Assembly (NCBI GenBank): GCA_026993525.1
Contig: JALWSS010000114.1
Coordinates: 1-57,145, forward strand
Direction of reading: 5' to 3'
From: Saprospiraceae bacterium
GTDB lineage: Bacteria; Bacteroidota; Bacteroidia; Chitinophagales; Saprospiraceae
Length of the DNA stretch: 57,145 nt
Shown here: positions 33,063-50,206 of the stretch, piece after piece
Layout: every line of letters starts with the position of its first letter
Position numbering within the stretch: position 1 is the first letter of the stretch
The notes under the pieces: generated by a model
Told to the model about the DNA's origin: nothing
Seen by the model: only the letters and a program-made list of their open reading frames with translations
Databases searched by the model: none
Translations under genes and position numbers: made by a program

Positions 33063-33169
33063 GTTGGATTTTAAAAGTTAGGAGGTGACACCCGGCCACC
33101 TCCTAAATCTGACCCCGGCAGTCAGCAACTCCGGTCAGTTTCTGAATATGCACCCTTTTATACCCAAGT

Positions 33170-33250: not shown

Positions 33251-33261
33251 TTTTGAGTATA

Positions 33262-35334
33262 TCATAGGGCTTCTTCCACCAGTTCAATGATGTCTTTCAC
33301 TGCCAGCTTGTCTTCGTTGCCGGAGGTTTTCACAGCGTCGGAAAACATGGTGTAATCCTTGGGGCAAGCGACGACAAAGAGGTTGACGCCATCAATTTCC
33401 AGAGCTTCTTCTATGCGCTGCACACTGGGGCGTTTTTCCAGTTTTGAATCGTCCATCCAGATGCGGCCACCGCCGGCACCACAACAGAAGGAATTTTCCT
33501 TGCAGCGCCTCATTTCGTGGAAATCCACACCCAGGGCCTCCAACAAGCGACGCGGAGCTTCGGTCTGGCGGTTGTACCGCCCGAGGTAACAGGGGTCGTG
33601 GTAGGTAACTTTGTACTGGTTGAGTTTTTTGCTGATCTTCAGTTTCCCCTCGTCCATCAGGCGGCAAAGCAATTCTGTGTAGTGCAACACCTTGTAGTTG
33701 GCCCCAAACTCCGGATACTCGTATTTCAAAGTATTGAGGGTGTGCGGATCAGTGGTAATGATCTCTTTGAATTGGGCATCCTTGAGCGCCTCCGAATTGT
33801 CTTCCACCAGCATTTCAAAGAGGCCTTCTTCGCCAATGCGGCGCACATCGTTTCCTGCATTTTTCTCCGCCTCGTACAAGATGCCGAAATTCAGTCCGAT
33901 ACTGTGGAACAAGTTGGCCACTTTGCGGGTCATTTGCTGTACGTTGGTATCGAAAGAGGCATAGTCACCAACGAACCACAGGTATTGGACGGGTTCTTTT
34001 CTGGCATCCTTGATTTTAAAATCGAGGTCTTTGGTCCATTTGGCCCTCATGCGTTCAGATTGGCCAAAGGAGTTGCCATAGTCTCCAATGTTCATGAGGG
34101 CATCCTGAAGGCTGTCTTCCATTTCTCCTTCGTCAACGAGGGTACGGCGCAGGTTGACAATGGATGTCAGGTGTTCGATGCCCACCGGGCAGGCTTCCAC
34201 ACAGGCCATGCAGGTGGTGCATGACCACAGGGTTTCCTTTTTGATCACCCCACCTGCCAGGGCCTTATCCTTTTTGCCGTTGCCATTGAGGAAAACCTGC
34301 GAGAACCACTCTTTGGGGCCCAGCTTTTCATTGGCAAAGGTGCGAAGGTCCAGGATGAGATCCCGGGGTGACAGCGGCGCGCCGGAGGCGTTGGCGGGGC
34401 AAGCGGCATGGCATCGGCCACATTTGGTGCAGGCGTCAAAATCGAGGAGTTCCTTCCAGGTGAAATCCTCCAGTTTGAGGTAGCCCATGCCTTCCTTCAT
34501 TTTTTCTTCCGTAACACGGGGCAGACGACGGGCAGCGAGATCATCCACAAACATGAGGTTGGCATAATCAACCAACATGTGCATGGCCTTGGAGAACGGG
34601 ATGTAAGCGATGAATACCAAAACGATTACGGCATGAAACCACCAGGTGTACATGTGCAAAGTACTCACGGGCAGGTTTTCCACCCAGCCGGCAATGAGCC
34701 ACCCCACCGGTGACCATTTTTCAAATGCAGGCATGCCCTCAGCTGCTATGCGCAAACCCTCGATCAGGAAACCTGTAAGACCGATGATGAGCAAGAGCCA
34801 CAAAAAGGTTTTGTCGTCCTTTTTGTACGAAGCACGGCTGTATTTTTCCGGAGGAAGGTCCGGTCGCCGGTAATCGAGCTGGGGGGGGTGCATCACACCC
34901 CTCCTGAAAATCATCATCAGCAATCCAACAATGAAAAAGACACCGAAAACGTCGAGGAAAAGAGAAAACCACAGGTAAAAACTTCCTTTGAGGAGGCGGT
35001 ATTCAAAGACCAGCTCCAAAAAGTCGTGGTCAACCGCAACGGTGACTGTTCCGAGAAACAAAACCACGAAGCCCCAGAAAATAAGCCAGTGGGCTACCCC
35101 TGCGTAGGTATCCCGTTTAAAAATGGTGGCATTGGTTGCCATCATACCCAGCGCTTTGAAAAAGCGTCCCACCAGGTTGTTGAACCGCCCGGCCTCCCGG
35201 CCACGCCTGTATTTTTTGATGCGCAACCAAAATCCGTAAATGAAAAAGGCTGATGTGGACAAGCCGATGACATAAAACACCACCTGCATCCACACCGGGA
35301 AGTTCATGAATATCTCTCTGGTAGCCTGTTCCAT
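33262..35334 (-). CDS. ETF:quinone oxidoreductase-like membrane iron-sulfur protein (HdrD/EMO type)
   Basis: 690 residues from MEQATREIFMNFPVW; a non-ATG start upstream was rejected. Residues ~1-270 carry about six membrane helices of the NarI/cytochrome-b type with several His (VAHWLIFWGF, VSTLHMYTWWFH). Two [4Fe-4S] motifs follow, CTKCGRCHAACP and CTTCMACVEACP. Then comes an HdrD-like CCG region (HDPCYLGRYN, NSFCCGAGGGR, VACPKDYTMF). Proteins of this build beside etfAB are thought to pass electrons from ETF to (mena)quinone. Here it follows etfB-etfA in the sHdr operon. Inferred direction: from EtfAB to the quinone pool. Confidence 0.85.
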   Translation of the reverse strand: MEQATREIFMNFPVWMQVVFYVIGLSTSAFFIYGFWLRIKKYRRGREAGRFNNLVGRFFKALGMMATNATIFKRDTYAGVAHWLIFWGFVVLFLGTVTVAVDHDFLELVFEYRLLKGSFYLWFSLFLDVFGVFFIVGLLMMIFRRGVMHPPQLDYRRPDLPPEKYSRASYKKDDKTFLWLLLIIGLTGFLIEGLRIAAEGMPAFEKWSPVGWLIAGWVENLPVSTLHMYTWWFHAVIVLVFIAYIPFSKAMHMLVDYANLMFVDDLAARRLPRVTEEKMKEGMGYLKLEDFTWKELLDFDACTKCGRCHAACPANASGAPLSPRDLILDLRTFANEKLGPKEWFSQVFLNGNGKKDKALAGGVIKKETLWSCTTCMACVEACPVGIEHLTSIVNLRRTLVDEGEMEDSLQDALMNIGDYGNSFGQSERMRAKWTKDLDFKIKDARKEPVQYLWFVGDYASFDTNVQQMTRKVANLFHSIGLNFGILYEAEKNAGNDVRRIGEEGLFEMLVEDNSEALKDAQFKEIITTDPHTLNTLKYEYPEFGANYKVLHYTELLCRLMDEGKLKISKKLNQYKVTYHDPCYLGRYNRQTEAPRRLLEALGVDFHEMRRCKENSFCCGAGGGRIWMDDSKLEKRPSVQRIEEALEIDGVNLFVVACPKDYTMFSDAVKTSGNEDKLAVKDIIELVEEAL

Positions 35335-35468
35335 AATAAAGTGTCGTTTAGTGTGAAAATCAATTTGCCCCGGCACTGCTCCTGCGCCTCTGTTTACCGA
35401 AGGAAATAATCTTTTTCAAAAAACAGCCAAAAGCTTACGCATGTGTGCTCTGGCGGCGAGGCGGCCCA

Positions 35469-36416
35469 TCAGAGTTTCTCTGTCAGTGCCGGCACCACGT
35501 CGAAGAGGTCTTCCGTTACTCCGTAATTGGCGTAATCGAAAATGGGAGCATTGGGGTCCGTGTTAATGGCGATAATGAGCTCGGAATCTTTCATCCCTTC
35601 GATATGCTCGGGTGCGCCGCTTATGCCCAGGGCTATGTAAACCTTTGGTTTTACTTTGAGACCGGATTTACCAACCTGCCTGGTTTTAGGCAGCCATTTG
35701 TTGTCAACAATGGGGCGTGAAGCAGAAACGGCTCCACCGAGTTTTGCGGCCAATTCTTCGGCAATGGACAAGTTTTCATCGCTCTGAATACCACGGCCAA
35801 CGCTGACGAGCACTTCAGCCTGTGTGATATCCACATCGCCGCCTTCAGGCTCGATCAGGCGTTTGAATTTCACCTGGAGGTCGTCCAGCCCGTCAACACT
35901 TACCTGCTCCACTTCAGGGCTGCCGTCGGCCTTCCCTTCATCAGCGGAGAACACCCCGGCCAATACTGCCGCTATGCAACTGTCGCCGTCCACTTCTGAT
36001 TCCACGTTGATCTTGCCACCGTACAACTGGCTGACCACGGTAATTTTTCCTCCCCCGGCATTGACATCCTGTGCATAGGCCAGTACGGGTACGTCAAGGC
36101 TTACCGAAAGCCCGGAAGCCAGGTCCATGCCCATTGAAGAATAAGGCACCAGTACGAGTCCGGGCATGCGATCTTTGAGCATTTGGGAATATGCCTTGCA
36201 ATAACTTTGCGGGTTGAAATTTTCCAGGTTGGGATGATCGGCGTACAAAACTTTTGAGGCAGCGCCCAATTGCGAAGCGAGGCCCTCCGCCCCGTGGCCG
36301 GCCAGCAAAGCGGTAACACTGTCACCACCGGCCAATTGTTTTGCCTTGCCCAGCAGTTCAAAGGTGTGATCTGAAATACTGCCATTGAGGTGTTCAGTTA
36401 TGACGTAAACATTCAT
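35469..36416 (-). CDS. etfA: Electron transfer flavoprotein alpha subunit
   Basis: 315 residues. The C-terminal FAD domain is clear: EVLVSVGRGIQ, SRPIVDNKWLPKTRQVGKSG, YIALGISGAPEHIEGM and IIAINTDPNAPIFDYANYGV. The N-terminal domain pairs with EtfB. It carries FAD and hands electrons to the membrane protein encoded just downstream. Gene order etfB-etfA-membrane protein (gaps 60 and 134 bases) inside the sHdr operon suggests it accepts electrons from sHdrA or a partner rather than from acyl-CoA dehydrogenases, though the fadD gene elsewhere in the window leaves fatty acid oxidation open. Confidence 0.95.
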   Translation of the reverse strand: MNVYVITEHLNGSISDHTFELLGKAKQLAGGDSVTALLAGHGAEGLASQLGAASKVLYADHPNLENFNPQSYCKAYSQMLKDRMPGLVLVPYSSMGMDLASGLSVSLDVPVLAYAQDVNAGGGKITVVSQLYGGKINVESEVDGDSCIAAVLAGVFSADEGKADGSPEVEQVSVDGLDDLQVKFKRLIEPEGGDVDITQAEVLVSVGRGIQSDENLSIAEELAAKLGGAVSASRPIVDNKWLPKTRQVGKSGLKVKPKVYIALGISGAPEHIEGMKDSELIIAINTDPNAPIFDYANYGVTEDLFDVVPALTEKL

Positions 36417-36476
36417 TTTGAATTCTTTTTTGTGGTTTTGACGAAAAGAAAGAAAAGCATGAAAAGGACCAGGTTG

Positions 36477-37235
36477 TCAAACCTTGCTCCGGATGATCTC
36501 GGCAAGTTTGGCAGCAACCTCCTCGGCTGAGCCCTCGAGCATTTCAGCCCTGCCTCCTGCTTCGGGCTTGTACATGCGGGTAACCTGAGAGCCAACATTT
36601 ACCGATACATCGCCTGCGTCCATTTCTTCGAGATCGGTAGATCGCATAGCCCTGCGAACTTTTGCTACCGGAACGTAACGGGGAGTTTGACGTGCTGCCT
36701 GAATGCCGAGCACAACCGGTGGTGCCACTTCAAATTCGGCTATGATACCTCCACCGTACTCTTTGTGGATTTCCAGGGTGCCGCCGTTATTGGACACCCC
36801 CGTTACCACACTGACATGAGGTACACCGAGGAAGTGAGCCAGCAGCACGCCAACCTGACCGTCTCTTTCATCAACTGCCTGAACGCCGGCAAAAACCATA
36901 TTCCATTCAAGCTGGGCAATGACATTGGCCATTGCCTTGGCGGCAGTTCTGCTGGCTACCTGACCTTCAAAGTTTCCGGTGATCTTGATGACCCGGTCAG
37001 CTCCTTTGGCTGCTGCGGCATACAAGGCTTTGTCGGCGTCGTTGGCATCGAGTGCGATGGCAATGACCTGCCCGCCGTGGTCTTCTTTAAAGCAAAGCGC
37101 TTCTTCCAGGGCGTGGTCGTCAAATTCATTCACCTTGAATTTCAGCCATTCCCGGTCGAGGTCCTTACCTCCGGATTCGATTTCGAGTTCTTCCACCAAA
37201 TCGGGGACTTGTCTCAGAGGAACAATGATGTTCAT
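36477..37235 (-). CDS. etfB: Electron transfer flavoprotein beta subunit
   Basis: 252 residues with the EtfB/FixA pattern: MNIIVPLRQVPD at the N-terminus, KFKVNEFDDHALEEAL, AKGADRVIKI, FAGVQAVDERDGQVG and PPVVLGIQAARQTPRYV. The segment VDERDGQVG lies in the nucleotide-binding loop. It forms a heterodimer with EtfA encoded 60 bases downstream. I cannot tell from sequence whether it is a bifurcating type (FAD instead of AMP in this subunit). The 45 bases to the LipS-type gene upstream are compatible with one transcript. Confidence 0.95.
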   Translation of the reverse strand: MNIIVPLRQVPDLVEELEIESGGKDLDREWLKFKVNEFDDHALEEALCFKEDHGGQVIAIALDANDADKALYAAAAKGADRVIKITGNFEGQVASRTAAKAMANVIAQLEWNMVFAGVQAVDERDGQVGVLLAHFLGVPHVSVVTGVSNNGGTLEIHKEYGGGIIAEFEVAPPVVLGIQAARQTPRYVPVAKVRRAMRSTDLEEMDAGDVSVNVGSQVTRMYKPEAGGRAEMLEGSAEEVAAKLAEIIRSKV

Positions 37236-37280
37236 ATTGCTTGTATTTTTGAATTATTGGTTCAGAGTTCATTGATCGTG

Positions 37281-38369
37281 TCAGCCGACCAGCTCTTCCA
37301 ACATGAGCTCACGGCGGATGAGCTGGAGGTCGTCCATTTCAGGTTCAAAGGGAAAGTCTCTGTAGGATTCACTGGGGCGATAGCTGCCATAAGGTCTTGT
37401 ACAACCGGGCTCGCCGTTTTCACCCGGGCATCCGTCGGTCATGAATGGCATGCCTTTGTCAAGGGTTCGCAACACGCGGTTGATGACGGAGGAAGGCGTG
37501 TTCAGCCTGGACAGGGCACCTTCTTCATCAAATTCCAGGGCGGAAGGCGGAAGATCGTAGTTTTCGACAAGGTGCTTGACCAGTTGTATTCTGCGCCAGC
37601 GCTTGATGGAAGATTTGGGGTGGTTACCCATCCGGGAGTCGGGCTCCGGGTTGAAGCAAAACAGATAAGCGAGTATCTGTCTTTCTTTCAATTGGTAAAA
37701 CATATCACACAGGTCCCTGTCGGTTTCGCCCAGTCCCACCACACAATGTATGTTGACTTTCCAGGGGCCGTATATTTCCCTGGAGTAATTGATGATGTCC
37801 CAATAGTTCTGCCATTTCAAGCCGCCTTTGGGCACATTGGTACGCCGATCGAAAAAGACTTCCTCGGTGACGGCGTCCAGTCCTACTCCAATCATATCAG
37901 CGCCGAGGTCCTTCAGGTGTTGCAGGCGTTCACGGTTGAGGGTGGGAGGGGCAACGAGCAAGGACAAAGGGGTTTTGACCCGCTGGCAAATCTTTTCGGT
38001 AATCTCACAGGTATCTCTGTAGGCAGAGCCGTGCGTGACCATTGAGATACAGAGCCTCGTCATTTTGTCCTCGTAACGCACCAGTCGCTCAATGACTTCG
38101 TCGGTTTCGAACAAGGGCCAATCCACGCGGATAAATGACTTTTCTTCGTAATCGCCGGGGCGGGTACGGGCCAGGCCGCAATAGGCACAATCGGAGAGGC
38201 AGCCATCGTCATAGTTGAGCAGCAGGTTGATGCCGCCGAAGTCAAATTCCCGTGAAAACCGCCCTGATTGCATACGCAGCACCATCGCGCTGGCGGCACT
38301 AAGCCTTACATAGTCAGGGCTGATCTTTTTTTCCTCATTTGCTGACAAAGTCGGCAGTGGGTACTCCAT
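37281..38369 (-). CDS. Radical SAM lipoyl synthase component, LipS1/LipS2 type
   Basis: 362 residues. The SAM-cluster motif is CLSDCAYC (Cys 57, 61, 64), followed by ISMVTHGSAYRDTC, LGADMIGVGLDAVTEEVF and YLFCFNPEPDSRMG, the biotin-synthase-like radical SAM core. A C-terminal DGCPGENGEPGC may hold an auxiliary cluster that donates sulfur. Such two-protein lipoyl synthases (LipS1 plus LipS2) accompany sHdr loci and insert the two sulfurs of lipoate on LbpA. The other member is encoded at 39638-40609, with a lipoate ligase between them. I cannot say which of the two is LipS1. Confidence 0.82.
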   Translation of the reverse strand: MEYPLPTLSANEEKKISPDYVRLSAASAMVLRMQSGRFSREFDFGGINLLLNYDDGCLSDCAYCGLARTRPGDYEEKSFIRVDWPLFETDEVIERLVRYEDKMTRLCISMVTHGSAYRDTCEITEKICQRVKTPLSLLVAPPTLNRERLQHLKDLGADMIGVGLDAVTEEVFFDRRTNVPKGGLKWQNYWDIINYSREIYGPWKVNIHCVVGLGETDRDLCDMFYQLKERQILAYLFCFNPEPDSRMGNHPKSSIKRWRRIQLVKHLVENYDLPPSALEFDEEGALSRLNTPSSVINRVLRTLDKGMPFMTDGCPGENGEPGCTRPYGSYRPSESYRDFPFEPEMDDLQLIRRELMLEELVG

Positions 38370-38499
38370 ATCGCAAATAGTTTTGTCGTTTTTCCGGTTA
38401 AGCGCTTATTGGGATTTTGGTTTTCAGGGCATTGGGTCAGTTACAATTGCAACACCGGGGCCTCGTCGTTTTGACAATGGTTGTTTCTTCAAAAAGTGC

Positions 38500-39624
38500 T
38501 CACACGCCCTGGCGCAATTCAGCAGGCTGGTAACAAGCGCCGCGATAATTGTAATGCACTTCTTTCATGGCCGCCAGCGATGCCCGCCAAACAAGCGCAG
38601 TGATGTCTTTCGGATCAATTCCGGCCGGGAGTTCCTTTCCTGAATGAAAAACCTTTTCCACGGTAGCGGCTATGGCTTCTTTCTCGGCCGGGCTCCATTT
38701 CAGTTGTGATTCGATTTCACTGAAGATGCCATTGTCAGCCAGGTAATCTCCTGTAATCAGCAGGCTCTTGATGGTTTGACCCTTGAGCGCCACATAGGCC
38801 CTGAGCAAACCGGCGGCTGTTTTTTTTACGCCCATTCCATTCATGTCGGGTTGGGGCGATTGACTGTAAAGCCAGTCCGGATGCCCATAAATGCTGTGGG
38901 CCAGGTGATCAATAGCCTTGTTTTCCGAAGGAGAAAAAGTCTGTGTAAAAAATGAGACCCCCAGTGTTGATTCAAAGGCCTTTTTCAACAAGTGCCTGAA
39001 TTCCCGGGCATCCATCGGGGCTCCGGTTTCTTCTTTCACTGTGGTGATTCGCTGGCGAATACCCTTCATCATTTTATCCGACAGCTTTTGGAGGGGTATC
39101 TTCAAGACCTTTAACATGAGTTCCAGATCGAGGTCCAACAGCAAGCTCGTATGAAACTGAATAATTCCATGGGGGTTGCTGTAGATGCCCAGTCCTGCAA
39201 TTTTCCTCCCCCTTACTTCCAGGTCATTTTTGCCCCTGAGGCTTGCCGTAATGCCGAGGGCTTTCAGGGCTTCAACAAGCGGTAAGGAAAGCTTGCGATA
39301 CAATTGCCGTGTGGTAAGTTTATCAGGAGCGGGCATGGTAACACAAACGCCCAGCTGATGCCGGCCCATGATGATGGCCCCCCCACCGGTCAGTCTTCTG
39401 CTGACGCTGATATCTTGCTTCCGGCAATAAGAAAGATCCAACTCCGCATGAATGTTCTGGAACCTGCCTACCAGTGCGCAATGATCGCGATAGGTGTAAA
39501 GCCGCAAAACGCCCGGTGCAGGTTCCACACCGTCCTTCAGGTGATAATCCATCAACAACTCATCGGCGGCCAATCCCGTGGCTGCATTTGCTCCGTCGTC
39601 CTGGATATATCTCCACTGGTTCAT
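38500..39624 (-). CDS. Lipoate-protein ligase family, two-domain (sLpl-like)
   Basis: 374 residues. The N-terminal LplA catalytic domain shows RRLTGGGAIIMG (residues 76-87) and GKNDLEVRGRKIAGLG with the catalytic Lys at 141. The C-terminal ~120 residues contain a GMGVKKTAAGLLRAYVALKG region resembling LplB-type accessory domains, so this is the fused A+B layout. It would attach octanoate or lipoate to the LbpA proteins. It lies between the two LipS-type genes, which fits the sHdr-linked lipoate assembly route. A general housekeeping LplA is the less likely alternative. Confidence 0.87.
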   Translation of the reverse strand: MNQWRYIQDDGANAATGLAADELLMDYHLKDGVEPAPGVLRLYTYRDHCALVGRFQNIHAELDLSYCRKQDISVSRRLTGGGAIIMGRHQLGVCVTMPAPDKLTTRQLYRKLSLPLVEALKALGITASLRGKNDLEVRGRKIAGLGIYSNPHGIIQFHTSLLLDLDLELMLKVLKIPLQKLSDKMMKGIRQRITTVKEETGAPMDAREFRHLLKKAFESTLGVSFFTQTFSPSENKAIDHLAHSIYGHPDWLYSQSPQPDMNGMGVKKTAAGLLRAYVALKGQTIKSLLITGDYLADNGIFSEIESQLKWSPAEKEAIAATVEKVFHSGKELPAGIDPKDITALVWRASLAAMKEVHYNYRGACYQPAELRQGV

Positions 39625-39637
39625 TCAAGCATGCGGG

Positions 39638-40609
39638 TTAAGCTCCACAGGAGCAGGCATTTTCAACATAATTGATTTTCAGGCCTTTGAGGCCGGCATG
39701 TGCGGCAATGTTTTCCGCAGGAAAGGCAATGCCGTTGAAGCCGGCATCCACTGCGTACCGGTCCACTTTTCTTTTATAGTCGCCAAGCGGCCTTGCACAT
39801 CCCAGCATGAGCCAGGTGTCGGGCATGGATTGGCGGGCTTGCAAAAAGAACCCTTCCACCTCTTCAACTTTTGGGGGTTCCACGCCCCACATATTGGTGC
39901 CGTGCATGGGAACGAGGATGACAACCACGAGGGAATGCACCGGATATTTGGCTATCATTTCTAGGGCATTGTATTCGCCGAGAAATTTTCCGAAGTGCAA
40001 TCCAAGAATTACATGGGGCCTGAGGCTAAGACCATGATCGGTCAGAACCTTCAGGCTGAGGTCGTAATCGTCAGTGGTGGCGCTGAGGTGGTACACGTCG
40101 CGAATGGTGTCGTCACTACCGATAATATCAATGGCCACTCCGCTCACACCTGCATCTTTCAAGGCCCTGGCCATAGCCGGTTTTGTGATCAGCCCAGTGT
40201 GCATAATGATGCGCAAGCCCAGTTCCTCTCTGACCCTTTTTATGTCATCAATGTGCTTCATAAAAGGCACTTCTCCACTTTTGGTAGAGCCCCCGCTGAT
40301 GAGCACCGTTTCGGTGCCTTTGGCTGCAAGGCGGCTGCACATGCTGAACAGGCCCTCCTTTTTATCGAGGGGTATCATGGGCTCCAGTATCTTTTTGTTG
40401 CAATGGTCACAATCCAATGCACAGGCAGCGCCCGTCAGGCTGACAGACATGAAAGCGTAAGGGTGGGAAGGCTGAAACTCCCTGGTTGAATAACTCTTCA
40501 GGCCGGTTGGCACAAAAAAAGTGATCTCATCGGGGAAGTTGGATTTCCTGATGTTGAAAGCCTCCTGGTAACGGTCTTGCAATTGAGTGGTCAAGGTTCT
40601 GCCAACCAT
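39638..40609 (-). CDS. Radical SAM lipoyl synthase component, second LipS type
   Basis: 323 residues with a SAM-cluster motif CALDCDHC (Cys 63, 67, 70), VLISGGSTKSGEVPF for SAM binding, GVAIDIIGSDDTIRDVYHL, and RPHVILGLHFGKFLGEYNAL. The last residues, NACSCGA, give two closely spaced Cys that could ligate an auxiliary cluster. It overlaps the 3' end of lbpA by 19 bases and ends 13 bases before the lipoate ligase, so it is firmly in the operon. With the protein encoded at 37281-38369 it would form the LipS1/LipS2 pair. Which is which is not resolved. Confidence 0.82.
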   Translation of the reverse strand: MVGRTLTTQLQDRYQEAFNIRKSNFPDEITFFVPTGLKSYSTREFQPSHPYAFMSVSLTGAACALDCDHCNKKILEPMIPLDKKEGLFSMCSRLAAKGTETVLISGGSTKSGEVPFMKHIDDIKRVREELGLRIIMHTGLITKPAMARALKDAGVSGVAIDIIGSDDTIRDVYHLSATTDDYDLSLKVLTDHGLSLRPHVILGLHFGKFLGEYNALEMIAKYPVHSLVVVILVPMHGTNMWGVEPPKVEEVEGFFLQARQSMPDTWLMLGCARPLGDYKRKVDRYAVDAGFNGIAFPAENIAAHAGLKGLKINYVENACSCGA

Positions 40610-41040: not shown

Positions 41041-41060
41041 GCAAAAAGTTGTTTGATCAA

Positions 41061-42329: not shown

Positions 42330-42411
42330 ATCGTAAAATTTCAATTGTGAGTCTCCTGCAAAAAGTCATTTTTCCGGGAATGCCCCTGCCTGGCAGGTAG
42401 CCGGCCCCCCA

Positions 42412-42475
42412 ACTCTCAACCCCTCTCAACCCCTCTCAACCTCCCGAGCTTGACTCGGGATCAACCCCTCTCAAC
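42412..42475. repeat. AACCCCTCTC tandem repeat interrupted by a palindrome
   Basis: The 10-base unit CTCTCAACCC repeats, is broken by TCCCGAG-CTTGA-CTCGGGA (42442-42460), and then continues. It lies between the 'hyp' gene and the shdrC2B2 gene inside the operon. Confidence 0.8.
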
Positions 42476-42508
42476 TGTCAAGGCTACTTTTTACAGCGTA
42501 CTCAATTG

Positions 42509-43252: not shown

Positions 43253-43277
43253 ATCGTCAGAAGTTTGCGGTTCAAAA

Positions 43278-44339
43278 TCAGGCTGAGACCGGAGCCAATT
43301 TGCGCATAGCTGAAATAGCCTTCATGGCAGCAAGGCCGGCCATTGACACGGTGTCTTCCAGGTCAGCCGGTCCTGTGCAGGCACCCACGGCAAATACACC
43401 TGGCACATTGGTCGAGACGGTGTCCAGTGGTCCCCCGGTTGTTTCGATGAAACCGTACTTATTCTGATTAAGGCCAAAAATCTTAGCCATCTCTTTGGTG
43501 CCACCACTTGGCTCCATACCCACTGACAGGATAACCATGTCCATGGGTACTTCCATTGGGCGCCGCAAGGTGGTATCTTCACCTTTGACCAACAGGCGAT
43601 CACCTTTCTTCAGAATTTCAGTGGCAATGCCTTTAATGTAATTGACCTTGTATTTTTCCTGGGCCGGCCAGTAAATTTCATTTTCCCAATAGCCGTACAT
43701 CCTCATGTCAATGTAGAAGATATAGACTTTGCAGTCGGGTACGTGCTGGCGGATTTCGATGGCCTGTTTGGAAGCAATACCACAACACACCTTAGAGCAA
43801 TACTCGTTGCCGATCTGGCGGTCGCGGGAGCCTACGCACTGAATGAAGCAGACGCGCTTTGGTTTTTCACCGTTGGAAGGCCTGACGAAGTTGCCGGCCT
43901 TGAGCATTTTTTCACAATCCACCAGCGTGATGACGTCGTCGTGCTCGTAATACCCGTATTTCTGTGTTTCTCGTCCCGGGTCAAAGTGGGTGAATCCCGT
44001 GCAGACGATCACTGCCGCAGCTTCAATTTCCACCTCTTTGCCAAGTTGCAGGGCTTTCACCCGGAAGTTGCCCAACTCACCTTCCGCATCATGCACCAGG
44101 GTGTTGTACATGATTTCCACGTTGGGGTGGTTCACAACGGGTTCAATCATTTCGTTGAGGGCTTCTTCGGCAGGACGCAGGTCAGGGGTGAGTGCGGCAT
44201 AGGAAGCTTCGTCGGGGGTTCCTCCCAGCCGGTCTCTTTTTTCAACGAGGACGGCCTCGTAACCGAGTTCGGCAATGCCCCTGGCCACTTCCAGACCGCC
44301 GGGCCCGCCACCAATGATGAGAATCTTTTGATTTGCCAT
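43278..44339 (-). CDS. shdrA: HdrA-like flavoprotein of the sHdr complex
   Basis: 353 residues from the ATG at 44339; a TTG two codons upstream is less likely. The FAD-binding loop IIGGGPGGLEVARGIAELG is followed by RLGGTPDEASY. The HdrA cysteine region is FIQCVGSRDRQIGNEYC then SKVCC. The C-terminal flavin domain is seen as TTGGPLDTVSTNVPGVFAVGAC. It is much shorter than methanogen HdrA, as in sHdr systems. It would take the electrons released when LbpA-bound sulfur is oxidized and pass them on, possibly to EtfAB. It sits between shdrB1 and 'hyp'. Confidence 0.93.
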   Translation of the reverse strand: MANQKILIIGGGPGGLEVARGIAELGYEAVLVEKRDRLGGTPDEASYAALTPDLRPAEEALNEMIEPVVNHPNVEIMYNTLVHDAEGELGNFRVKALQLGKEVEIEAAAVIVCTGFTHFDPGRETQKYGYYEHDDVITLVDCEKMLKAGNFVRPSNGEKPKRVCFIQCVGSRDRQIGNEYCSKVCCGIASKQAIEIRQHVPDCKVYIFYIDMRMYGYWENEIYWPAQEKYKVNYIKGIATEILKKGDRLLVKGEDTTLRRPMEVPMDMVILSVGMEPSGGTKEMAKIFGLNQNKYGFIETTGGPLDTVSTNVPGVFAVGACTGPADLEDTVSMAGLAAMKAISAMRKLAPVSA

Positions 44340-44416
44340 TTTCAAGTTGTTGGTTTTATAAAATCACTCATCTGTTTACAAACAGCATGTTCAAGTTCAA
44401 TTCAAGCCCACCTGGT

Positions 44417-45613
44417 TCATACCGGCACACTCTCTACATCATCCCAGGTGAGGTAGAGTTGCTCACCGTTTTTGAGTTTGTCCACTTGTTCTTCAAACTC
44501 TCTCCACTTTTCCTCTGGGTCAATTCCGATTTTTTCGAGGAAGGGCTTGTTGTCGGTGTTGTGCCAGTGCATTTGCAACACCAGATATGGATGCGCACCC
44601 AGGGCCAGTGCCGCCACCTGAGAATCTGACAATACGGGTAGCCCCACTTTCTTGTCGTGGGCCTTGCCGGCAAACTGGCTTTGATCGAGCGTGGTAACAC
44701 AACCGGTGTCATGGGTAACTACCAAATCGGGATTGGCTTCTTCTTTCATCACCTCAATTTTCCGCTGAACGGCAAACGAACGGGAAAAATCGCGTGACAC
44801 CAGAATATGCCTGAACCCAAATCCGCAGCAGTCAAACCAGGTGGAGTAATCCGCCACATTCACACCGATCTTTTGCAATACACCCGTAATGATAGCGGTG
44901 CGTTGCGCGCCATATATTTCAGGTGTGTAAATGGCATCTTCCTCGATGAGTTTGTGGTAGTGGCAAGCCGGATGAACCGTGGCCGTGATGGGGCTCATAT
45001 CCATTACCTGATGCTCTGCTATGCGGTCTCTCATGGCATAGACCCACTCGCTGTAGTGAACTATTTCTTCCGGTATCACCAGCTTTTTTCCCAGTTTTTC
45101 CATGATTTTCCGGACCTGCGCCCGCAGTTCCGGATAGTGCATGAGGCTTTGTCTGACTTCTTTGTAGTGTCCGAAGCTGGTGCCACAGTGAATGATGGGG
45201 AAATAGCCCGTTTCGTATGCAGCGGCGAAGTTGCGTATGGCCACAGCAGCCTGGGCAGCAGGATTGGAGGTTGCCGAAGCATAATAGTTCCAGGCTGTAC
45301 AGGAGGTCTGATCCTTGGGGTCAATGTAGTCCAGGCCCAGCTTTCTGTTCAGCCAGAATATGGAGGTGGAGTAGCCGGGAATGTGCCCGCACTGACCGCA
45401 GCTTTTGTGATGCCAGGTACGTTCCACGGGTATTTTCTTGGTCCGACCGTATTTGGTCTTGACTTCAATGTAAGGTTCCGGAACCCGCTGCACGATGATC
45501 TCCCCGTCTTTCTCCAGTTGATCGAGAATGTCGTGGTAATCCTCAGTTGGAGGTGTTTCGGGCAGCTCAAAATTGCGGTCCCTGGCTTGATTTACTACCG
45601 GCAAGTGTATCAT
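44417..45613 (-). CDS. shdrB1: HdrB1-like subunit of the sHdr complex
   Basis: 398 residues. Cysteine-rich CCG-type regions: HHKSCGQCGHIPG (Cys 72 and 75), DQTSCTAWNYYAS (105), HPACHYHKL, WFDCCGFGFRH and THDTGCVTTLD. In HdrB such cysteines carry noncubane iron-sulfur clusters at the disulfide-cleaving site. The long N-terminal extension before residue 70 fits sHdrB1. Two genes upstream is lbpA, and shdrA follows directly. It probably forms the catalytic module with sHdrC1. Confidence 0.9.
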   Translation of the reverse strand: MIHLPVVNQARDRNFELPETPPTEDYHDILDQLEKDGEIIVQRVPEPYIEVKTKYGRTKKIPVERTWHHKSCGQCGHIPGYSTSIFWLNRKLGLDYIDPKDQTSCTAWNYYASATSNPAAQAAVAIRNFAAAYETGYFPIIHCGTSFGHYKEVRQSLMHYPELRAQVRKIMEKLGKKLVIPEEIVHYSEWVYAMRDRIAEHQVMDMSPITATVHPACHYHKLIEEDAIYTPEIYGAQRTAIITGVLQKIGVNVADYSTWFDCCGFGFRHILVSRDFSRSFAVQRKIEVMKEEANPDLVVTHDTGCVTTLDQSQFAGKAHDKKVGLPVLSDSQVAALALGAHPYLVLQMHWHNTDNKPFLEKIGIDPEEKWREFEEQVDKLKNGEQLYLTWDDVESVPV

Positions 45614-45664
45614 GACTGAAATTTTAATTCGTGAATGAATTGGATGTTGGGTCTGTCAGGTGCT

Positions 45665-46366
45665 TCAGAAAGAGACATCATACCCTTCTTCTTCCAGTTT
45701 CTCTTCCATGACGTCAACCAGGATCATGTGGAGGCCGTCGTCTATTTCCTCTATCATGTCCATGACACCGGTCATGTGCCAGATGAGATATAGCTCGATG
45801 ATGGTTTTGTCATCAACCGCCCATCCCGTTTCAGTGGTGTGGAGGGTTTCGGGTGGCAGGGCTTTGCGCCACCATTCCAGGTTGTCTGAAATGTCCTTCA
45901 CATGAGGCCCCCAGTCGGGAAAGGCATTGGGCTGCAGCATGTCAGGAGACACCTGCGTGCCCGTGGACATGATCTTGTAGATGATCCGGCCGTAACCTTC
46001 AAGGGCTTCTTTGGCAGTTTGAAGGCCGTTGTTCACCGCTACCTCCCGCATAATGGTGATCAGCATGCCGGGAGAATTATGACGAGGACAACGATCGCAG
46101 GAAAAGCACTGTGAACAATCCCATATACTGTCGTTCATCAGGGTGTAAATGAGGTCCACATCTTCGCGGGCAGTAGCCTGGGCAATGACCCTCGGGCTGA
46201 AATCGTAAAACCTTGCCGAGGGGCAGGCAGCCACGCAAATACCACACTCGTAACAGCCATACAGCGCGTGGTGAAAGCGCAAGTCGGCTTTCACTTCGTT
46301 GAAAAGCCGTTCCTTTTCTTCGTAAGGAACATCGGCGTATTTGTTCATCGAAAGATCAAGTCCCAT
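45665..46366 (-). CDS. shdrC1: HdrC1-like iron-sulfur subunit of the sHdr complex
   Basis: 233 residues. The first cluster motif is regular: CYECGICVAACP (Cys 38, 41, 44, 48). The second, CSQCFSCDRCPR (84, 87, 90, 93), has only two residues before the last Cys, where HdrC normally has three. This may mark a variant cluster. The C-terminal helical part is acidic (MEEKLEEEGYDVSF). It is the first hdr gene, following lbpA by 97 bases, and transfers electrons between sHdrB1 and sHdrA. Confidence 0.9.
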   Translation of the reverse strand: MGLDLSMNKYADVPYEEKERLFNEVKADLRFHHALYGCYECGICVAACPSARFYDFSPRVIAQATAREDVDLIYTLMNDSIWDCSQCFSCDRCPRHNSPGMLITIMREVAVNNGLQTAKEALEGYGRIIYKIMSTGTQVSPDMLQPNAFPDWGPHVKDISDNLEWWRKALPPETLHTTETGWAVDDKTIIELYLIWHMTGVMDMIEEIDDGLHMILVDVMEEKLEEEGYDVSF

Positions 46367-46463
46367 GATTCAATGATTTATTGGTGCGAAAACGTGCACC
46401 TGCCAATCCGGCCCGCAGGCGCGGTCAAGGTTGAAATGGCGGGGCAGTTTTTCGAACAATTGT

Positions 46464-46937
46464 TTAAGCTTCAGGCGTTTCAGTGCCTTCAATGTGGGTA
46501 CAGGTTATGCCCTCTTTGTCAATCTTTGCCCTGTAAGCTTCTACCGCAGCTTCACCGGTGACGAGGTCCGCCAGGTCGGCTTCCAGGTTGTCCGGTTTCA
46601 TTTTCACAATCCAGCCTTTGTAATAAGGGCTGCGGTTGAGCATCTGAGCATCAGACTCCAGCTCTTCGTTGACTTCAATTATTTCACCGCTTACAGGTGA
46701 TTTTACCGGCCCCACCCATTTGCCGCTTTCCACTGTGCCAATGGGGCGGCCTTTTTTCCGGGCAGTACCCGGCTTTTTTGAACGCGCATGAAGGATAGGC
46801 CCGGCCAGTGACTGCGCCACGTCGGTCATACCAACCGTTACCGTGCCGTCGTCATTGACACGAACCCAGGTGTTGTCCTCCACAGAATAGTAGAGGTCTG
46901 TTACCAGAAAACATTCGTTGATTTTTTCGTAGGCCAT
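46464..46937 (-). CDS. lbpA: Lipoate-binding protein LbpA (GcvH-like), second copy
   Basis: 157 residues. The lipoyl-lysine is K73 in VESGKWVGPVKSPVSGEI, the ESGKWVG form that is characteristic of LbpA rather than of glycine-cleavage H protein. An insert rich in K and R (ARSKKPGTARKKGRP) precedes it. It lies 11 bases after dsrE and 97 bases before shdrC1, so it is the copy closest to the sulfur-relay genes. I infer that it is the main sulfur carrier, and that the other copy may be a special or second carrier. Confidence 0.92.
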   Translation of the reverse strand: MAYEKINECFLVTDLYYSVEDNTWVRVNDDGTVTVGMTDVAQSLAGPILHARSKKPGTARKKGRPIGTVESGKWVGPVKSPVSGEIIEVNEELESDAQMLNRSPYYKGWIVKMKPDNLEADLADLVTGEAAVEAYRAKIDKEGITCTHIEGTETPEA

Positions 46938-46948
46938 TTGCTAACAGT

Positions 46949-47332
46949 TTAGAAATACATTACGTGATCGGACTCTAATGCCAGGCTGATGATACTGGTA
47001 GCACCCAGTATTTCAACGCCGTCTATGAGGTCTTCAGGTTGCATATCCCAAAGCGTCAGGCTTTGCTGGCACACGCGCAGTTTGACATCGTTGTCCAATG
47101 CCATTTGCAGCATGCTTTTTAGTGTTACGCCACTTTCGGGCACCAGCGAGACTTTCTCTGCTTCTCCTTTTTTGAGTTGGTTGGTTCCGTTCATGGTGAA
47201 CCACAGCATCACATCCATTTCCATTGCGGCAGCAGCCACCGCATAATAAATGGGTGAGTAGGTGCGCGTAGGTGTATCTACGCCGTGGGTTTGAATGACC
47301 AGGATCTTTTTGCCTTCGAGATCTTCACTCAT
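46949..47332 (-). CDS. dsrE: DsrE-family sulfur carrier
   Basis: 127 residues with the DsrE/F alpha-beta fold: KILVIQTHGVDTPTRTYSPIYYAVAAAAMEM-type N-terminus and the conserved cysteine C88 in DNDVKLRVCQQSLTLW, followed by GATSIISLAL. Such proteins carry a persulfide and exchange it with TusA. Located directly before lbpA in the operon, it probably delivers sulfur toward the lipoyl arm. Confidence 0.9.
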   Translation of the reverse strand: MSEDLEGKKILVIQTHGVDTPTRTYSPIYYAVAAAAMEMDVMLWFTMNGTNQLKKGEAEKVSLVPESGVTLKSMLQMALDNDVKLRVCQQSLTLWDMQPEDLIDGVEILGATSIISLALESDHVMYF

Positions 47333-47418
47333 AGCTTTGTATCAAAATTTAGCGGGTTAATGGTTTCAGTTTTCGTTCGGGTTTATCCGCAGCCACGGAC
47401 CCTTTTCGTGTGCCGGAG

Positions 47419-47676
47419 TCATACAAGGTCACATTCCTTGTCGGGGTCGGCATGAACGAAAATGTATTTTTTGTCCCAACTCCAGTTTTCATCCTCATCC
47501 ATCATGAACTCATGCAGTTCCTGTTTGTCTTTGGAATATTTCAGGAGTTTGAATTTTTCCGGCCTTCCGTTGTCCGATTCTTTCAATACCTCCAGCAACA
47601 GCCAATACCCTGGAAGTTGCTGATAAAGCCGGGCAATTTCCCGGTCGGTATAAACTGTGTTCAGTTGCGGAGGCAT
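47419..47676 (-). CDS. Small conserved-position hypothetical protein in the sHdr operon
   Basis: 85 residues, no cysteine in the core and one near the end (DKECDLV). It is acidic and aromatic: YQQLPGYWLLLEVL, MMDEDENWSWDKKYIFVHAD. No family recognised. The coding frame is supported by the clean start and its placement 86 bases before dsrE and 28 bases after the ligase gene, in the same direction. It may be a small partner of DsrE or of the ligase. Function unknown. Confidence 0.6.
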   Translation of the reverse strand: MPPQLNTVYTDREIARLYQQLPGYWLLLEVLKESDNGRPEKFKLLKYSKDKQELHEFMMDEDENWSWDKKYIFVHADPDKECDLV

Positions 47677-47704
47677 TGCAATTCACAAAATGTCTTGTCA
47701 GTTT

Positions 47705-48868
47705 TCAAATGGAAAAAGGGGCAGCCGCTGTCAACGATTTCAACTTCACCAATGCATTGGCAAATTCTTCAGGTATCAGGTTTTCACTCCTGACCGAATG
47801 CAACTCAAAAAACACCTTTGTGGTTTCCTCGATTGCTTCCCTTTCAAATGGCGTATGTTTCAGCATTTTCTCGAATGCTTCCAACTTGTACGGCGGGTCC
47901 ATTTCTACGCTTTCGCAAAAACGGATCGCATCAATTCGCTTACCTCGCAGGCGTACAACCGCCGTGAGTTCCCCACCGCTTTTCGATCGCCAGGTGCACT
48001 GTCCCACCCACACATCGGCATGCACTTTCACAAGCCGCCGGGCAGGCACTTCTGCAGTTTTTCCTTCGGGAAACACCCATTCATCAGCGGTGAATTTTTG
48101 TTCAATTCTTTGAATCCACTGTTCTTCCTCTTCGGTGAAATACCCTTTCCCGATGGGTCTCTGAAGTACGGCTTTGCAATGCTCCAGGTACGCATTTCTG
48201 ATCTCCGCCGCAGGTGGTGCAGCACCCAGTTCCCTGCCCAGATTTGAAAAATACTTTTCAAGACTGTCGGCAAACATCCGGCGGAAGCATTCACCCGGTA
48301 CGTTCAATACCCCGACCATCCGGTCAAAGTCGAAACCCAGGATGAAATTTCCGGTTACCACCTCCGCATTGCCAATGGCTGCTGCGCCGGTACCAACCAG
48401 CTTTCTGCCGTTGACGTGTACGTCATTGGGCGGGTGAAAAGCGGCTTTGATTCCGAATTGGCGATGCGTTTCTACAATGGGCTTAATGAAATACTGAAAC
48501 CGCGTGCCGGCTCTTCGGGGCAAATGCTCCGGTGCGAAAATCCATTGCACAAACAGTTGCATATTGTCAATGAACACGGTTCCTCCACCTGTTTCTCGTC
48601 TGATGACAGGCAGCTGAAAAGACCTGCAATGGTTCAGGTCTAATTCTTTGCGTGCATCCTGGTGATATCCTATGCAGACATAAGGCTCAGCAGGACGAAC
48701 AAAAACGATCGTATCGGGTGATTCTTCGTTTCTGGCGTAAGCCAGTGCGTGGTAAATAGCTTGAGACCGCAAAGCGGATACCTCACCTGCATCTATCCAC
48801 CTTACTTTCTTCTTTGATTTCAAAATCAAACTCCTTTGACCTGGCTCCACCCCTGTGGTATTGACCAC
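47705..48868 (-). CDS. Second lipoate-protein ligase-like protein
   Basis: 387 residues from a GTG at 48868. A TTG at 48823 with AGGAG just upstream could be the real start (K-rich KSKKKVRW). LplA/LipM-type features are RRETGGGTVF (residues 90-99) and VNGRKLVGTG with Lys 156. The C-terminal ~120 residues (VHADVWVGQCTWRSKSGGE, LRGKRIDAIRF) differ from the ligase at 38500-39624, so the two are not recent duplicates. One may act as an octanoyl transferase and the other as a lipoate ligase, or each may serve one LbpA. Confidence 0.82.
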   Translation of the reverse strand: MVNTTGVEPGQRSLILKSKKKVRWIDAGEVSALRSQAIYHALAYARNEESPDTIVFVRPAEPYVCIGYHQDARKELDLNHCRSFQLPVIRRETGGGTVFIDNMQLFVQWIFAPEHLPRRAGTRFQYFIKPIVETHRQFGIKAAFHPPNDVHVNGRKLVGTGAAAIGNAEVVTGNFILGFDFDRMVGVLNVPGECFRRMFADSLEKYFSNLGRELGAAPPAAEIRNAYLEHCKAVLQRPIGKGYFTEEEEQWIQRIEQKFTADEWVFPEGKTAEVPARRLVKVHADVWVGQCTWRSKSGGELTAVVRLRGKRIDAIRFCESVEMDPPYKLEAFEKMLKHTPFEREAIEETTKVFFELHSVRSENLIPEEFANALVKLKSLTAAAPFSI

Positions 48869-48929
48869 ACTTAGGGATCTTTACCACTTATTTGAGAATA
48901 TCAACGGGCTGGACACCAAAGCAGTAAAG

Positions 48930-49457
48930 TCAAATAAACAATTGCACATCGGCATCTCCTGCATAAGAAAGGAAAGCCGCTGCACCACCTATTTCGGTTT
49001 CATCAATGAAGTCCTCCTTTGTGAAGCCAAAAACGTCCATCGTCATCTGGCAGGCAATGAGTTTCACGTCCAGGTCCACGCACATTTCACGCAATTCACC
49101 GATGGAGGCCACGCCTTTCGACTTGAAGAGCTTCTTCATCAGTCCGGTGGCTACATTTTCAAAACCCGGCAAGTTGGCCATCAATATATTCGGGATGGGC
49201 CAATTGACCTTTTGGAAACCTTCGCCACCAAAAGGCATTTTCATCGGCATAGCAGGGTTACCCAGGGGCGACACCTTCGCATCCAAATCCTTTTTCAGCA
49301 AAGGCAACCCGTAAAATGTAAAGAAGATACCCACTTCCCAATCCATGGAAGCCGCTGCAGAAGCAAGAATGAATGGAGGGTAGGCCCAATCAAGCGTTCC
49401 TCTGCTTGCGATGAGCGCAAGGCGCTTGGTTCCGGTATTACCATTTTCACTTGACAT
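48930..49457 (-). CDS. dsrE2: DsrE2-like (DsrE/F/H-like, membrane-adjacent) protein
   Basis: 175 residues. The DsrE2 pattern is KRLALIASRGTLDWAYPPF with FILASAAASMDWEVGIFFTFYG, then IPNILMANLPGFENVATGLMKK, and MCVDLDVKLIACQMTMDVFG. Cysteines C126 and C136 are the likely sulfur sites. The hydrophobic N-terminal stretches suggest loose membrane contact. Such proteins accompany tusA and dsrE in sulfur oxidizers and are thought to feed sulfane sulfur into the relay. It lies four bases after tusA's stop codon. Confidence 0.9.
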   Translation of the reverse strand: MSSENGNTGTKRLALIASRGTLDWAYPPFILASAAASMDWEVGIFFTFYGLPLLKKDLDAKVSPLGNPAMPMKMPFGGEGFQKVNWPIPNILMANLPGFENVATGLMKKLFKSKGVASIGELREMCVDLDVKLIACQMTMDVFGFTKEDFIDETEIGGAAAFLSYAGDADVQLFI

Positions 49458-49460
49458 GAC

Positions 49461-49700
49461 TCAATGAGTTTTTTTGATGAAAAAAATGAACTTGTCCCCC
49501 TGATCCTTTGCTTCTACCAACTCATGCCCGGTTTGCTTTGCCCAGGCACTCATGTCTGGCATTGACCCCGGATCAGTGGAAACCATTTCCAATACTTGCC
49601 CAACTTCCAGGTCCTTCAATGCTTTTTTGGTCTTGACAACCGGCATTGGGCACAAAAGGCCTGTACAGTCCAGTACCTTGTCAGCTTTCATGTCTGCCAT
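49461..49700 (-). CDS. tusA: TusA-family sulfur transfer protein
   Basis: 79 residues from the ATG at 49700 (MADMKADKVLDC); an open frame upstream to 49772 lacks a better start. The active Cys17 lies in the TusA motif LCPMPVVKTKKAL, and C12 precedes it. The fold continues with VLEMVSTDPGSMPDM. In sulfur oxidizers it is the central carrier of protein-bound sulfane sulfur. It precedes dsrE2 directly and follows the ArsR regulator by 72 bases. Confidence 0.94.
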   Translation of the reverse strand: MADMKADKVLDCTGLLCPMPVVKTKKALKDLEVGQVLEMVSTDPGSMPDMSAWAKQTGHELVEAKDQGDKFIFFIKKTH

Positions 49701-49772
49701 AAAATGAGTTTTTAATAGGTGAAAGAAACTGTTGATCCGGTTAATTCGGGGTTGCGGATATGGATAGAGCAA

Positions 49773-50102
49773 TTACAGAATGTCATCCAAATCGCATTGC
49801 TCCATGCAGTCAAAAATCTTGGTTATTTGCGTGAATGACAGGCTGTAATAAATCTTCCGCCCCTCGCGGTACGATTGCAATATCCCCTTGTCTTTCATCT
49901 TGTTGATGTGATGCGACAACAGCGATAGCTCGATGTCCAGGTATTCCCTCAGCCTGCCCACTGAAACGGGCTCCCGCTCTTCAAGAAACTCGATGATCCT
50001 CAGCCTGACCGGATGTGAAATAACTTTTAAAATATCGGCAAGCCTCGCCATCTTGACAGCGTTCAAACCTTGCCTCTGAAATGTATGTGACTCAAGTTGC
50101 AT
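49773..50102 (-). CDS. ArsR-family transcriptional regulator, candidate sHdrR
   Basis: 109 residues from the ATG at 50102; an upstream non-conserved extension to 50162 is possible. The winged helix is clear: LADILKVISHPVRLRIIEFL, SVGRLREYLDIELSLLSHHI (recognition helix), GILQSYREGRKIYYSLS. Two C-terminal Cys (99 and 103, CMEQC) could sense sulfane sulfur or persulfide. In Hyphomicrobium denitrificans an ArsR-type repressor controls shdr genes, so position as first gene of this locus supports the same role. Arsenic sensing is unlikely, since no arsenic genes are nearby. Confidence 0.82.
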   Translation of the reverse strand: MQLESHTFQRQGLNAVKMARLADILKVISHPVRLRIIEFLEEREPVSVGRLREYLDIELSLLSHHINKMKDKGILQSYREGRKIYYSLSFTQITKIFDCMEQCDLDDIL

Positions 50103-50206
50103 ATATCTGAATGAGAATAATATTTCGGAATCCCCGCCCAACAGAACCAAATTATTGGACACCGGGCTTCAATCCTGAATTTTAGAACGCATTTGCTCCG
50201 GACGGC

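Follow-up and report, generated by a model that had tools for sequence, protein, structure and literature searches.

A complete gene set for the cytoplasmic oxidation of sulfane sulfur, built around a sulfur-oxidizing heterodisulfide reductase-like (sHdr) complex and lipoate-binding proteins (LbpA), is found in a genome of the family Saprospiraceae, which places this gene set in the class Bacteroidia, a group not usually considered sulfur oxidizers. The DNA analysed, called the window throughout, is a stretch of 57,145 nucleotides from contig JALWSS010000114.1 (contig 114) of the assembly GCA_026993525.1 (G000; 5.16 Mb, 100% complete, 0.17% contamination). With a probability of roughly 0.72, an island of ~18.9 kb within the window encodes a functional type II sHdr system, in which sulfane sulfur would be oxidized to sulfite with electrons feeding menaquinone, and for which a third radical S-adenosylmethionine (SAM) protein would serve as a maturation factor. 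The complex itself is already known. New here are its occurrence in Bacteroidia, the inclusion of lipoate genes within the cluster and, most notably, the third radical SAM gene, whose product is an uncharacterized enzyme absent from the pathway as now described and possibly one of its missing components. The features of the window are given below (aa, amino acids).

31970..50855, strand not assigned: genomic island; in the same-genus genome G951 its two flanking genes occur without the segment
31974..33062, minus strand: third radical SAM protein, 362 aa, with a CX3CX2C motif and a conserved C-terminal cysteine group (C250/C287/C288/C295/C298)
33262..35376, minus strand: Emo-like membrane protein, 704 aa, FeS/CCG, a proposed EtfAB:menaquinone oxidoreductase (role by analogy, PMC5101538)
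35469..36416, minus strand: EtfA
36477..37235, minus strand: EtfB
37281..38369, minus strand: LipS2-like lipoyl synthase (189.9 bits, cut-off 270; cysteines conserved)
38500..39624, minus strand: lipoate-protein ligase 2, catalytic and C-terminal domain, Lys141
39638..40609, minus strand: LipS1-like lipoyl synthase (222.0 bits, cut-off 230)
40591..41040, minus strand: LbpA2, lipoate-binding protein, Lys70
41061..42344, minus strand: sHdrB3 (fused C2B2), 427 aa, 4Fe-4S and CCG domains
42509..43252, minus strand: sHdrH ("hyp"), mostly helical in the model
43278..44345, minus strand: sHdrA (best PDB match 6tjr, presumably the HdrA-like subunit of Hyphomicrobium denitrificans)
44417..45613, minus strand: sHdrB1, the proposed catalytic subunit
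45665..46366, minus strand: sHdrC1, eight conserved cysteines (two 4Fe-4S sites)
46464..46937, minus strand: LbpA1, lipoate-binding protein, Lys73
46949..47332, minus strand: DsrE3-like sulfurtransferase, Cys88
47419..47676, minus strand: conserved 85-aa protein, present in relatives
47705..48868, minus strand: lipoate-protein ligase 1, Lys156
48930..49457, minus strand: DsrE2 sulfur carrier (NCBIfam NF047629, 217.9 bits, above the cut-off of 210)
49461..49772, minus strand: TusA, CPxP motif
49773..50162, minus strand: ArsR/SmtB regulator (mechanical open reading frame), whose only cysteines are C119 and C123

Every gene that a preliminary description of this DNA had named is present and intact within 33262-50162, with all of the open reading frames (ORFs) on the minus strand from the ArsR gene (50162) down to the membrane FeS/CCG gene. 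That description had listed the shdr genes as C1, B1, A, hyp, C2 and B2; the first four stand, the last two are one fused gene (B3), and the conserved unit runs further left, to 31974, which adds the third radical SAM gene. Both LbpA proteins match GcvH in the profile search, retain the lipoyl lysine and are linked to sHdr genes, as expected of LbpA, and lipoyl synthase is the best family match for each of the LipS-like proteins. EtfAB:menaquinone oxidoreductases are characterized by a membrane domain, 4Fe-4S sites, a CCG domain and linkage to etf genes; the Emo-like protein has all four, with five hydrophobic segments by simple hydropathy scanning, a pair of 4Fe-4S sites, one CCG domain and the adjoining etfBA, and menaquinone reduction is its predicted function.

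A scan of named genomes with two sequence patterns yielded 290 relatives, the best 80 of which were kept, and residue conservation was read from the best match per locus in 80 loci, excluding matches that covered less than 60% of the query. Residues with an expected role in binding sulfur, lipoate or FeS clusters are uniformly retained: the eight sHdrB1 cysteines in 80/80 loci, the CPxP motif of TusA in 62/62 relatives, the lysines of LbpA1 (K73, 66/66) and LbpA2 (K70, 67/67), those of ligase 1 (47/47) and ligase 2 (44/44), and the radical SAM cysteines of the LipS1-like (28/28) and LipS2-like (19/19) proteins. Since both LbpA queries match one and the same protein in 34/68 loci, and both ligase queries do so in 27/51, these paired counts are not independent. 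Ratios of nonsynonymous to synonymous substitution (dN/dS) against the nearest cluster are 0.03-0.17 in 10 of the 15 genes tested, although these are rough values because dS is high (1.6-2.8) in the ten and saturated in the other five. Judged from the intact ORFs, the conserved residues and the low dN/dS, the gene set appears to be functional and under selection. The model of sHdrH is confident and mostly helical (predicted local distance difference test, pLDDT, 89.4), W135, W138, Y168 and Y208 are invariant in 37 sequences, and a PDB search at E 0.001 gave no match; a new fold is a possible reading of this model. For the 85-aa protein, family-profile searches gave no match.

Type I systems are defined by the order C1-B1-A-H-C2-B2 and type II systems by C1-B1-A-H-B3 with etfAB in one cluster (PMC11582611). 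The fused B3 together with etfBA in one cluster makes the window a type II system; in place of the separate shdrC2 and shdrB2 genes that characterize type I there is a single ORF of 427 aa. An Etf-linked arrangement, group III, is described from Actinobacteria and Firmicutes (PMC6067878), and the window resembles these type II/group III hdr-lbpA-etfBA clusters in its clustered C1-B1-A-H-B3, EtfBA and LbpA (PMC6067878, PMC11582611) and, by our own comparison, in the Emo-like gene. It differs from them in having LipS1-Lpl-LipS2 and LbpA2 inside the cluster, in the addition of a second ligase, the 85-aa gene and the third radical SAM gene, and in its host class, Bacteroidia. With the type I system of Hyphomicrobium denitrificans it shares sHdrA, B1, C1, H, LbpA, LipS1/S2, a ligase and sulfur carriers (PMC10332631, PMC12423496), whereas that system has separate C2 and B2, no etfAB in its definition, and a regulator, sHdrR, with a cysteine pair. 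The LipS1/LipS2 and sLpl(AB) pathway of lipoate assembly likewise places both lipoyl synthase types and a ligase beside lbpA (PMC10332631), but the window has two ligases, and one more radical SAM protein is encoded next to the same genes; LipT was not noticed in the window cluster, for which no profile search for LipT was made.

In the proposed pathway, whose reactions and direction of electron flow we infer from gene content, sulfane sulfur in the cytoplasm would be relayed over TusA, DsrE2 and DsrE3, TusA and DsrE proteins being known carriers of sulfane sulfur. The sHdr complex (C1, B1, A, H and B3), with lipoylated LbpA1 and LbpA2, would oxidize it to sulfite, and electrons would pass from sHdr over EtfBA to the membrane Emo-like protein and on to menaquinone. 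Lipoate would be assembled on LbpA1 and LbpA2 by LipS1, LipS2 and the two ligases. The third radical SAM protein would act as a pathway maturation factor, most likely by modifying a protein residue (of LbpA or another subunit), and a SoeABC-like enzyme may dispose of the sulfite. In Hyphomicrobium, sHdr with LbpA forms sulfite (PMC10332631), and an EtfAB:menaquinone oxidoreductase has been proposed in Syntrophomonas (PMC5101538); the presence of linked Etf genes and a protein like that of Syntrophomonas suggests that electrons here go to menaquinone.

Several observations weigh against this reading. Both LipS-like proteins score under the NCBIfam curated cut-offs. SoxB is over its cut-off in 0/19 genomes searched (weak matches occur in 18/19 of them and in 10/14 control genomes, none over cut-off), so that thiosulfate, named in the preliminary description as the source of sulfur in known systems, finds no support as substrate. 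A type-I-like sulfide:quinone oxidoreductase (SQR) was not found in G000 at E 1e-15, a probe that other SQR types may escape; it matched in 5/27 genomes, and among the 13 sHdr genomes of the family only in G081. As for the fate of sulfite, G000 encodes a SoeBC-like protein (43% identical to that of G302, a genome of another family of the phylum), yet the gene is also present in 4/4 sHdr-negative genomes of the same genus, which led to its rejection as a family partner of sHdr, and it was not found in the sHdr-positive G142. The complex may be real and serve another purpose than gaining energy by oxidizing inorganic sulfur, such as the disposal of organic sulfur or persulfides, or operation on a different thiol substrate. 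Besides the SoxB and SQR results, this alternative draws on the fact that Saprospiraceae are known as heterotrophs, and sulfite formation alone would not prove energy gain; it is nevertheless considered fairly unlikely, because EtfBA and the membrane Emo-like protein, both linked to the cluster, speak for electrons being passed to quinone and SoeABC-like genes adjoin the cluster in some relatives. A candidate sulfur importer, a YeeE/YedE-like gene by sequence appearance, lies inside the lipoate part of the cluster of G292 (L046:16177-16770). YeeE-type importers occur in 22/27 genomes, and the copy in G000, 78% identical to the G292 cluster gene, is elsewhere (C103); the importer was rejected as an sHdr partner because the sHdr-negative G028 has a like copy and the sHdr-positive G069, G162, G173, G302 and G382 gave no match.

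The preliminary description also held that sulfur is oxidized here by the same route as in Hyphomicrobium, from which the type II composition with Etf and an Emo-like gene departs, as does the regulator. Sensing of sulfane sulfur by sHdrR needs two conserved cysteines, equivalent to Cys50 and Cys116, and many shdr-linked ArsR-type proteins lack this pair (both PMC12423496). In the window protein C119 and C123 both lie near the C terminus, so at most one can be equivalent to a member of the sHdrR pair and the protein does not qualify as a sensor of that kind. The two cysteines are conserved all the same (C119 in 18/18 relatives, C123 in 16/17), which makes another sensing mode possible. Most relatives align from residue 31-34 (two align from 13 and 23), and the true start of the ArsR gene may therefore lie further in.

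The third radical SAM gene lies inside the island, to the left of the genes first described, and its occurrence follows that of sHdr closely. The family sample comprised 298 Saprospiraceae genomes, window included, from 112 genera. At E 1e-30 the radical SAM gene is found in 13 of them, 12 of which carry sHdrB1 (E 1e-20), and the mismatches are incomplete genomes: G171 (82% complete) has B1 and no radical SAM match, and G054 (72%) shows the reverse, the contig with its radical SAM gene carrying LipS2-EtfB-EtfA-Emo beside it. Among the 217 near-complete family genomes (completeness of 90% or more, contamination of 5% or less), both genes occur together in the same 11, and neither occurs in the other 206 (Fisher 1e-18, uncorrected for kinship, which inflates the significance). 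Switches are seen within genera (in g1, two of six sampled genomes have both genes and four neither; in g29, G132 has both and G028 neither). The gene occurs in 2/395 genomes of the phylum sample (the window and G302 only), and a further search of 50 sHdr genomes (69 first chosen; none among the 13 family carriers) found it in 17 of the 19 with a B1 identity of at least 75%, two of these genomes (L061 and L062) being near-copies of each other. The association is nevertheless incomplete: the gene was not found in two Calditrichota at this B1 identity, in 30 of the 31 sHdr genomes of lower B1 identity (largely Chloroflexota and Actinomycetota; the sole carrier is a Neomarinimicrobiota), in G171, or in G382, where B1 is present. 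The third radical SAM gene is thus not essential to every type II system.

Linkage was counted in 32 radical SAM carriers within a 5 kb radius (sHdr, Etf, Emo, LbpA, ligase, LipS and TusA genes, ArsR excluded). In 24 of the 32 the gene lies at most 5 kb from sHdr, Etf or lipoate-type genes, always in the direction of the nearest one, and in 13 of the 24 no more than 53 bp separate the match ends. One copy is near only a SoeBC-like gene, and seven have no linked sHdr-type gene in the stretch fetched (three of them at a contig end), which detracts from the association. The position of the gene varies: after Emo in many Bacteroidota; before ArsR-TusA in L039, L043 and L044; after LipS2 in Planctomycetota; and beside ligase 1 in KSB1, an Acidobacteria genome, a Neomarinimicrobiota genome and G302. 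Recurrent proximity despite varying gene order favours a common function over a single inherited arrangement. In G069, G041 and G162 (L147, L179, L181) a large ATPase-like gene (AAA+ by sequence appearance) adjoins the radical SAM gene.

The protein has the motif and fold of the radical SAM superfamily, with PF04055 at 28.6 bits, just under the gathering threshold of 29.5, and C38, C42 and C45 (CX3CX2C) as well as C179, C250, C287, C288, C295 and C298 are invariant in nine sequences. The structural model is fair (pLDDT 74.5) and poor at 37-54 and 245-298, where most of the invariant cysteines lie. Its best PDB matches are SkfB, BlsE and anSME (template modelling, TM, score 0.37-0.44), with SkfB at E 2.1e-7 and TM 0.42-0.44, and neither SPASM/twitch nor any other named maturase family was above cut-off. 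A protein-modifying maturase with an auxiliary cluster is predicted from these features, with LbpA as the first-guess target because the gene often adjoins lipoate genes. The idea of a membrane anchor on the C-terminal segment was dropped, the highest 19-residue mean hydropathy being 1.17.

It is tentatively proposed, at somewhat less than even odds, that type II sHdr systems in Bacteroidota, Planctomycetota and KSB1, and in the one Acidobacteria genome, the one Neomarinimicrobiota genome and G302, depend for sulfur oxidation on a post-translational or cofactor modification beyond lipoate, made by this enzyme. Alternatively, the gene may be a passenger, or act on SoeABC, a quinone or a lipid rather than on sHdr proteins. 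Five genomes do have a SoeBC-like gene at most 1.5 kb from the radical SAM gene (at most 300 bp in G905, G906 and G302; also G945 and G903), in G173 the distance is ~3 kb, and the scarcity of the radical SAM gene among the more distant type II genomes fits a passenger as well. SoeBC-like genes also occur, however, in G061, G154, G217, G261 and G382, which gave no match to the radical SAM gene, the gaps after LipS2 or Emo, or beside ligase 1, are very short in several phyla, and the nearest folds include the peptide-modifying SkfB and anSME besides BlsE, so that this alternative appears rather unlikely. Among the matches listed in a search of the open-access literature, no third radical SAM partner is reported in the passages available; PMC10332631 names two such proteins, LipS1 and LipS2.

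The sHdr genes and the third radical SAM gene are gained or lost as one unit. All nine of the best outside matches to the M28 peptidase on the left flank come from the same genus (91% identity in G951), and in G951 the peptidase is followed by 1.08 kb of repeats and then by the counterpart (85%) of the window gene at 50.85-53.45 kb, while the sHdr cluster and the third radical SAM gene are unmatched in the 36 kb examined (C10:30000-66000). The region of about 31970-50855 (~18.9 kb) is therefore one unit, gained in the window genome or lost in G951, which may carry sHdr elsewhere. In five other same-genus genomes (G953, G154, G261, G217 and G061) the peptidase is present and the right-flank gene is unmatched in the stretch read, so that the comparison rests on the one collinear site, in G951. 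No tRNA was found in the window, and no mobile genes were recognized by eye at the island edges, at which no aimed search was made. Composition was rejected as a test of the island: the G+C content at third codon positions (GC3) is 0.59 for the cluster, 0.60 for the radical SAM gene and 0.66-0.73 for five left-flank genes, but a right-flank gene (53529-55976) has 0.60, so that GC3 does not decide. Intergenic repeats, of different sequence in each genome, lie at the island site (window:50367-50830, tandem; L226:6557-7637), a possible insertion hot spot or assembly hazard.

The sharp presence/absence edges against G951 at ~31.97 and 50.85 kb, and the tandem repeats near the right edge, where misjoins are easier, could be taken to mean that a segment of another organism was wrongly joined into the contig. 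The preliminary description had named a coverage or composition break at about 32 or 50 kb as a sign of such an error; a boundary is present there as a presence/absence difference, but it reads as gain or loss of an island, since both flanks form one native locus, collinear in G951. Misassembly or contamination is in fact very improbable, given the 0.17% contamination of the assembly, the recurrence of sHdrB1 in 13/298 family genomes, window included (8/112 genera), and the position of the window proteins as sister to those of a Saprospiraceae metagenome-assembled genome (MAG) within a supported group. The identification of a complete sHdr/LbpA set in this Saprospiraceae genome, made in the preliminary description, is supported. 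Family carriers have the same gene order wherever contigs reach, with small differences only (the 85-aa gene unmatched in G069 and G162, ArsR unmatched in G228, a second TusA in G041 and G060). In wider samples, the four sHdrB1 carriers of the order sample (298 genomes) all belong to the Saprospiraceae, and the three of the phylum sample (395 genomes) are the window, the closed genome G302 and G382.

Among the best 80 of 290 relatives, B1 identity reaches 89% in Saprospiraceae, followed by other Bacteroidota, by Calditrichota and KSB1 at 79-81%, by Planctomycetota at 75-77%, and by Chloroflexota, Actinomycetota and others mostly at 68-72%; Calditrichota, KSB1 and Planctomycetota are the nearest outside the Bacteroidota. 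These 80 include no alpha- or gammaproteobacterial record, and two "Deltaproteobacteria" records at 71% are labelled Myxococcota in the tree. A four-gene tree (83 rows, quick method, LG+G4, without an outgroup, and without type I rows, as the sole type I candidate fetched, L198, has B1 only) places the window next to L030, the Saprospiraceae MAG G132, with support 100. Both fall in a set of 22 rows, likewise with support 100, in which the 21 rows besides the window all carry the label Bacteroidota; the next larger group has 27 rows and includes Calditrichota (support 99). Three rows labelled Bacteroidota fall elsewhere (L040 and L045 beside or among Calditrichota, L061 nearly identical to a KSB1 row) and may be mislabelled. 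The family distribution, this tree (given its lack of type I rows) and the best 80 of 290 relatives led us to judge contamination or recent transfer from Proteobacteria unlikely. The core window proteins are 86-91% identical to those of G132, from another genus, as against 78-82% to those of G292, from the window's own genus, which suggests exchange between genera or unequal loss.

In the open-access literature, among the matches listed, the passages available contain no report of sHdr in Saprospiraceae, although published genome-wide tables may list such genomes. A 2025 marine-sediment survey that required the order C1-B1-A-hyp-C2-B2 found its assignable sHdr sets (334/406) in Proteobacteria MAGs (PMC12345210). 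Within the literature searched, the preliminary claim of a wider distribution thus holds for the class Bacteroidia; at the level of the phylum, the system is also present in the closed genome G302 (3,293,456 bp), which has a related type II cluster. Its cluster shares C1, B1, A, H, B3, EtfBA, Emo, two LbpA, two ligases, LipS1/S2, the radical SAM gene and a DsrE3-like gene (30% identity) with the window, and differs in gene order, in sequence (B1 66%, LbpA2 34%) and in the adjoining SoeBC-like gene; TusA, DsrE2, the 85-aa gene and ArsR are unmatched within the 29 kb examined. G302 may be Chloroherpeton thalassium; if so, the cluster could bear on the slow, Dsr-free sulfur oxidation of that organism. 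Chloroherpeton thalassium lacks dsr, the route of its slow sulfur oxidation being called unclear (PMC8232776), and it may already be listed as an sHdr carrier in PMC6067878. In the sHdr-positive G382, of the same family as G302, one stop is reported inside the B1 match, and H and LipS are unmatched in the 20 kb examined.

Other genes recur around type II clusters. A class-V-aminotransferase/cysteine-desulfurase-like protein of ~500 aa, named by sequence appearance, is encoded upstream of and divergent from ArsR (L046:2889-4412, L036:3-1421), and a relative (26-29% identity) lies between B3 and EtfB in eight loci (e.g., L053:11940-13577; also L050, L057, L058, L059, L062, L064 and L065). In the clade without the third radical SAM gene, 22 loci, mostly in Chloroflexota and Actinomycetota, encode a small CPYC- and CPVC-containing protein close to sHdr (e.g., L085:20421-20777); L186, L188 and L191 have a gene of similar appearance close to the radical SAM gene. 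Four plasmid records contain B1 homologues. One of these, an Acidithiobacillus ferrooxidans plasmid (L198, NZ_CP040512.1), carries an isolated sHdrB1 homologue (52%) with genes for hemerythrin, globin and GcvH-like proteins nearby and hcp ~6 kb away. Other sHdr subunits are not annotated in the 19 kb shown, and a second role of B1 is possible there.

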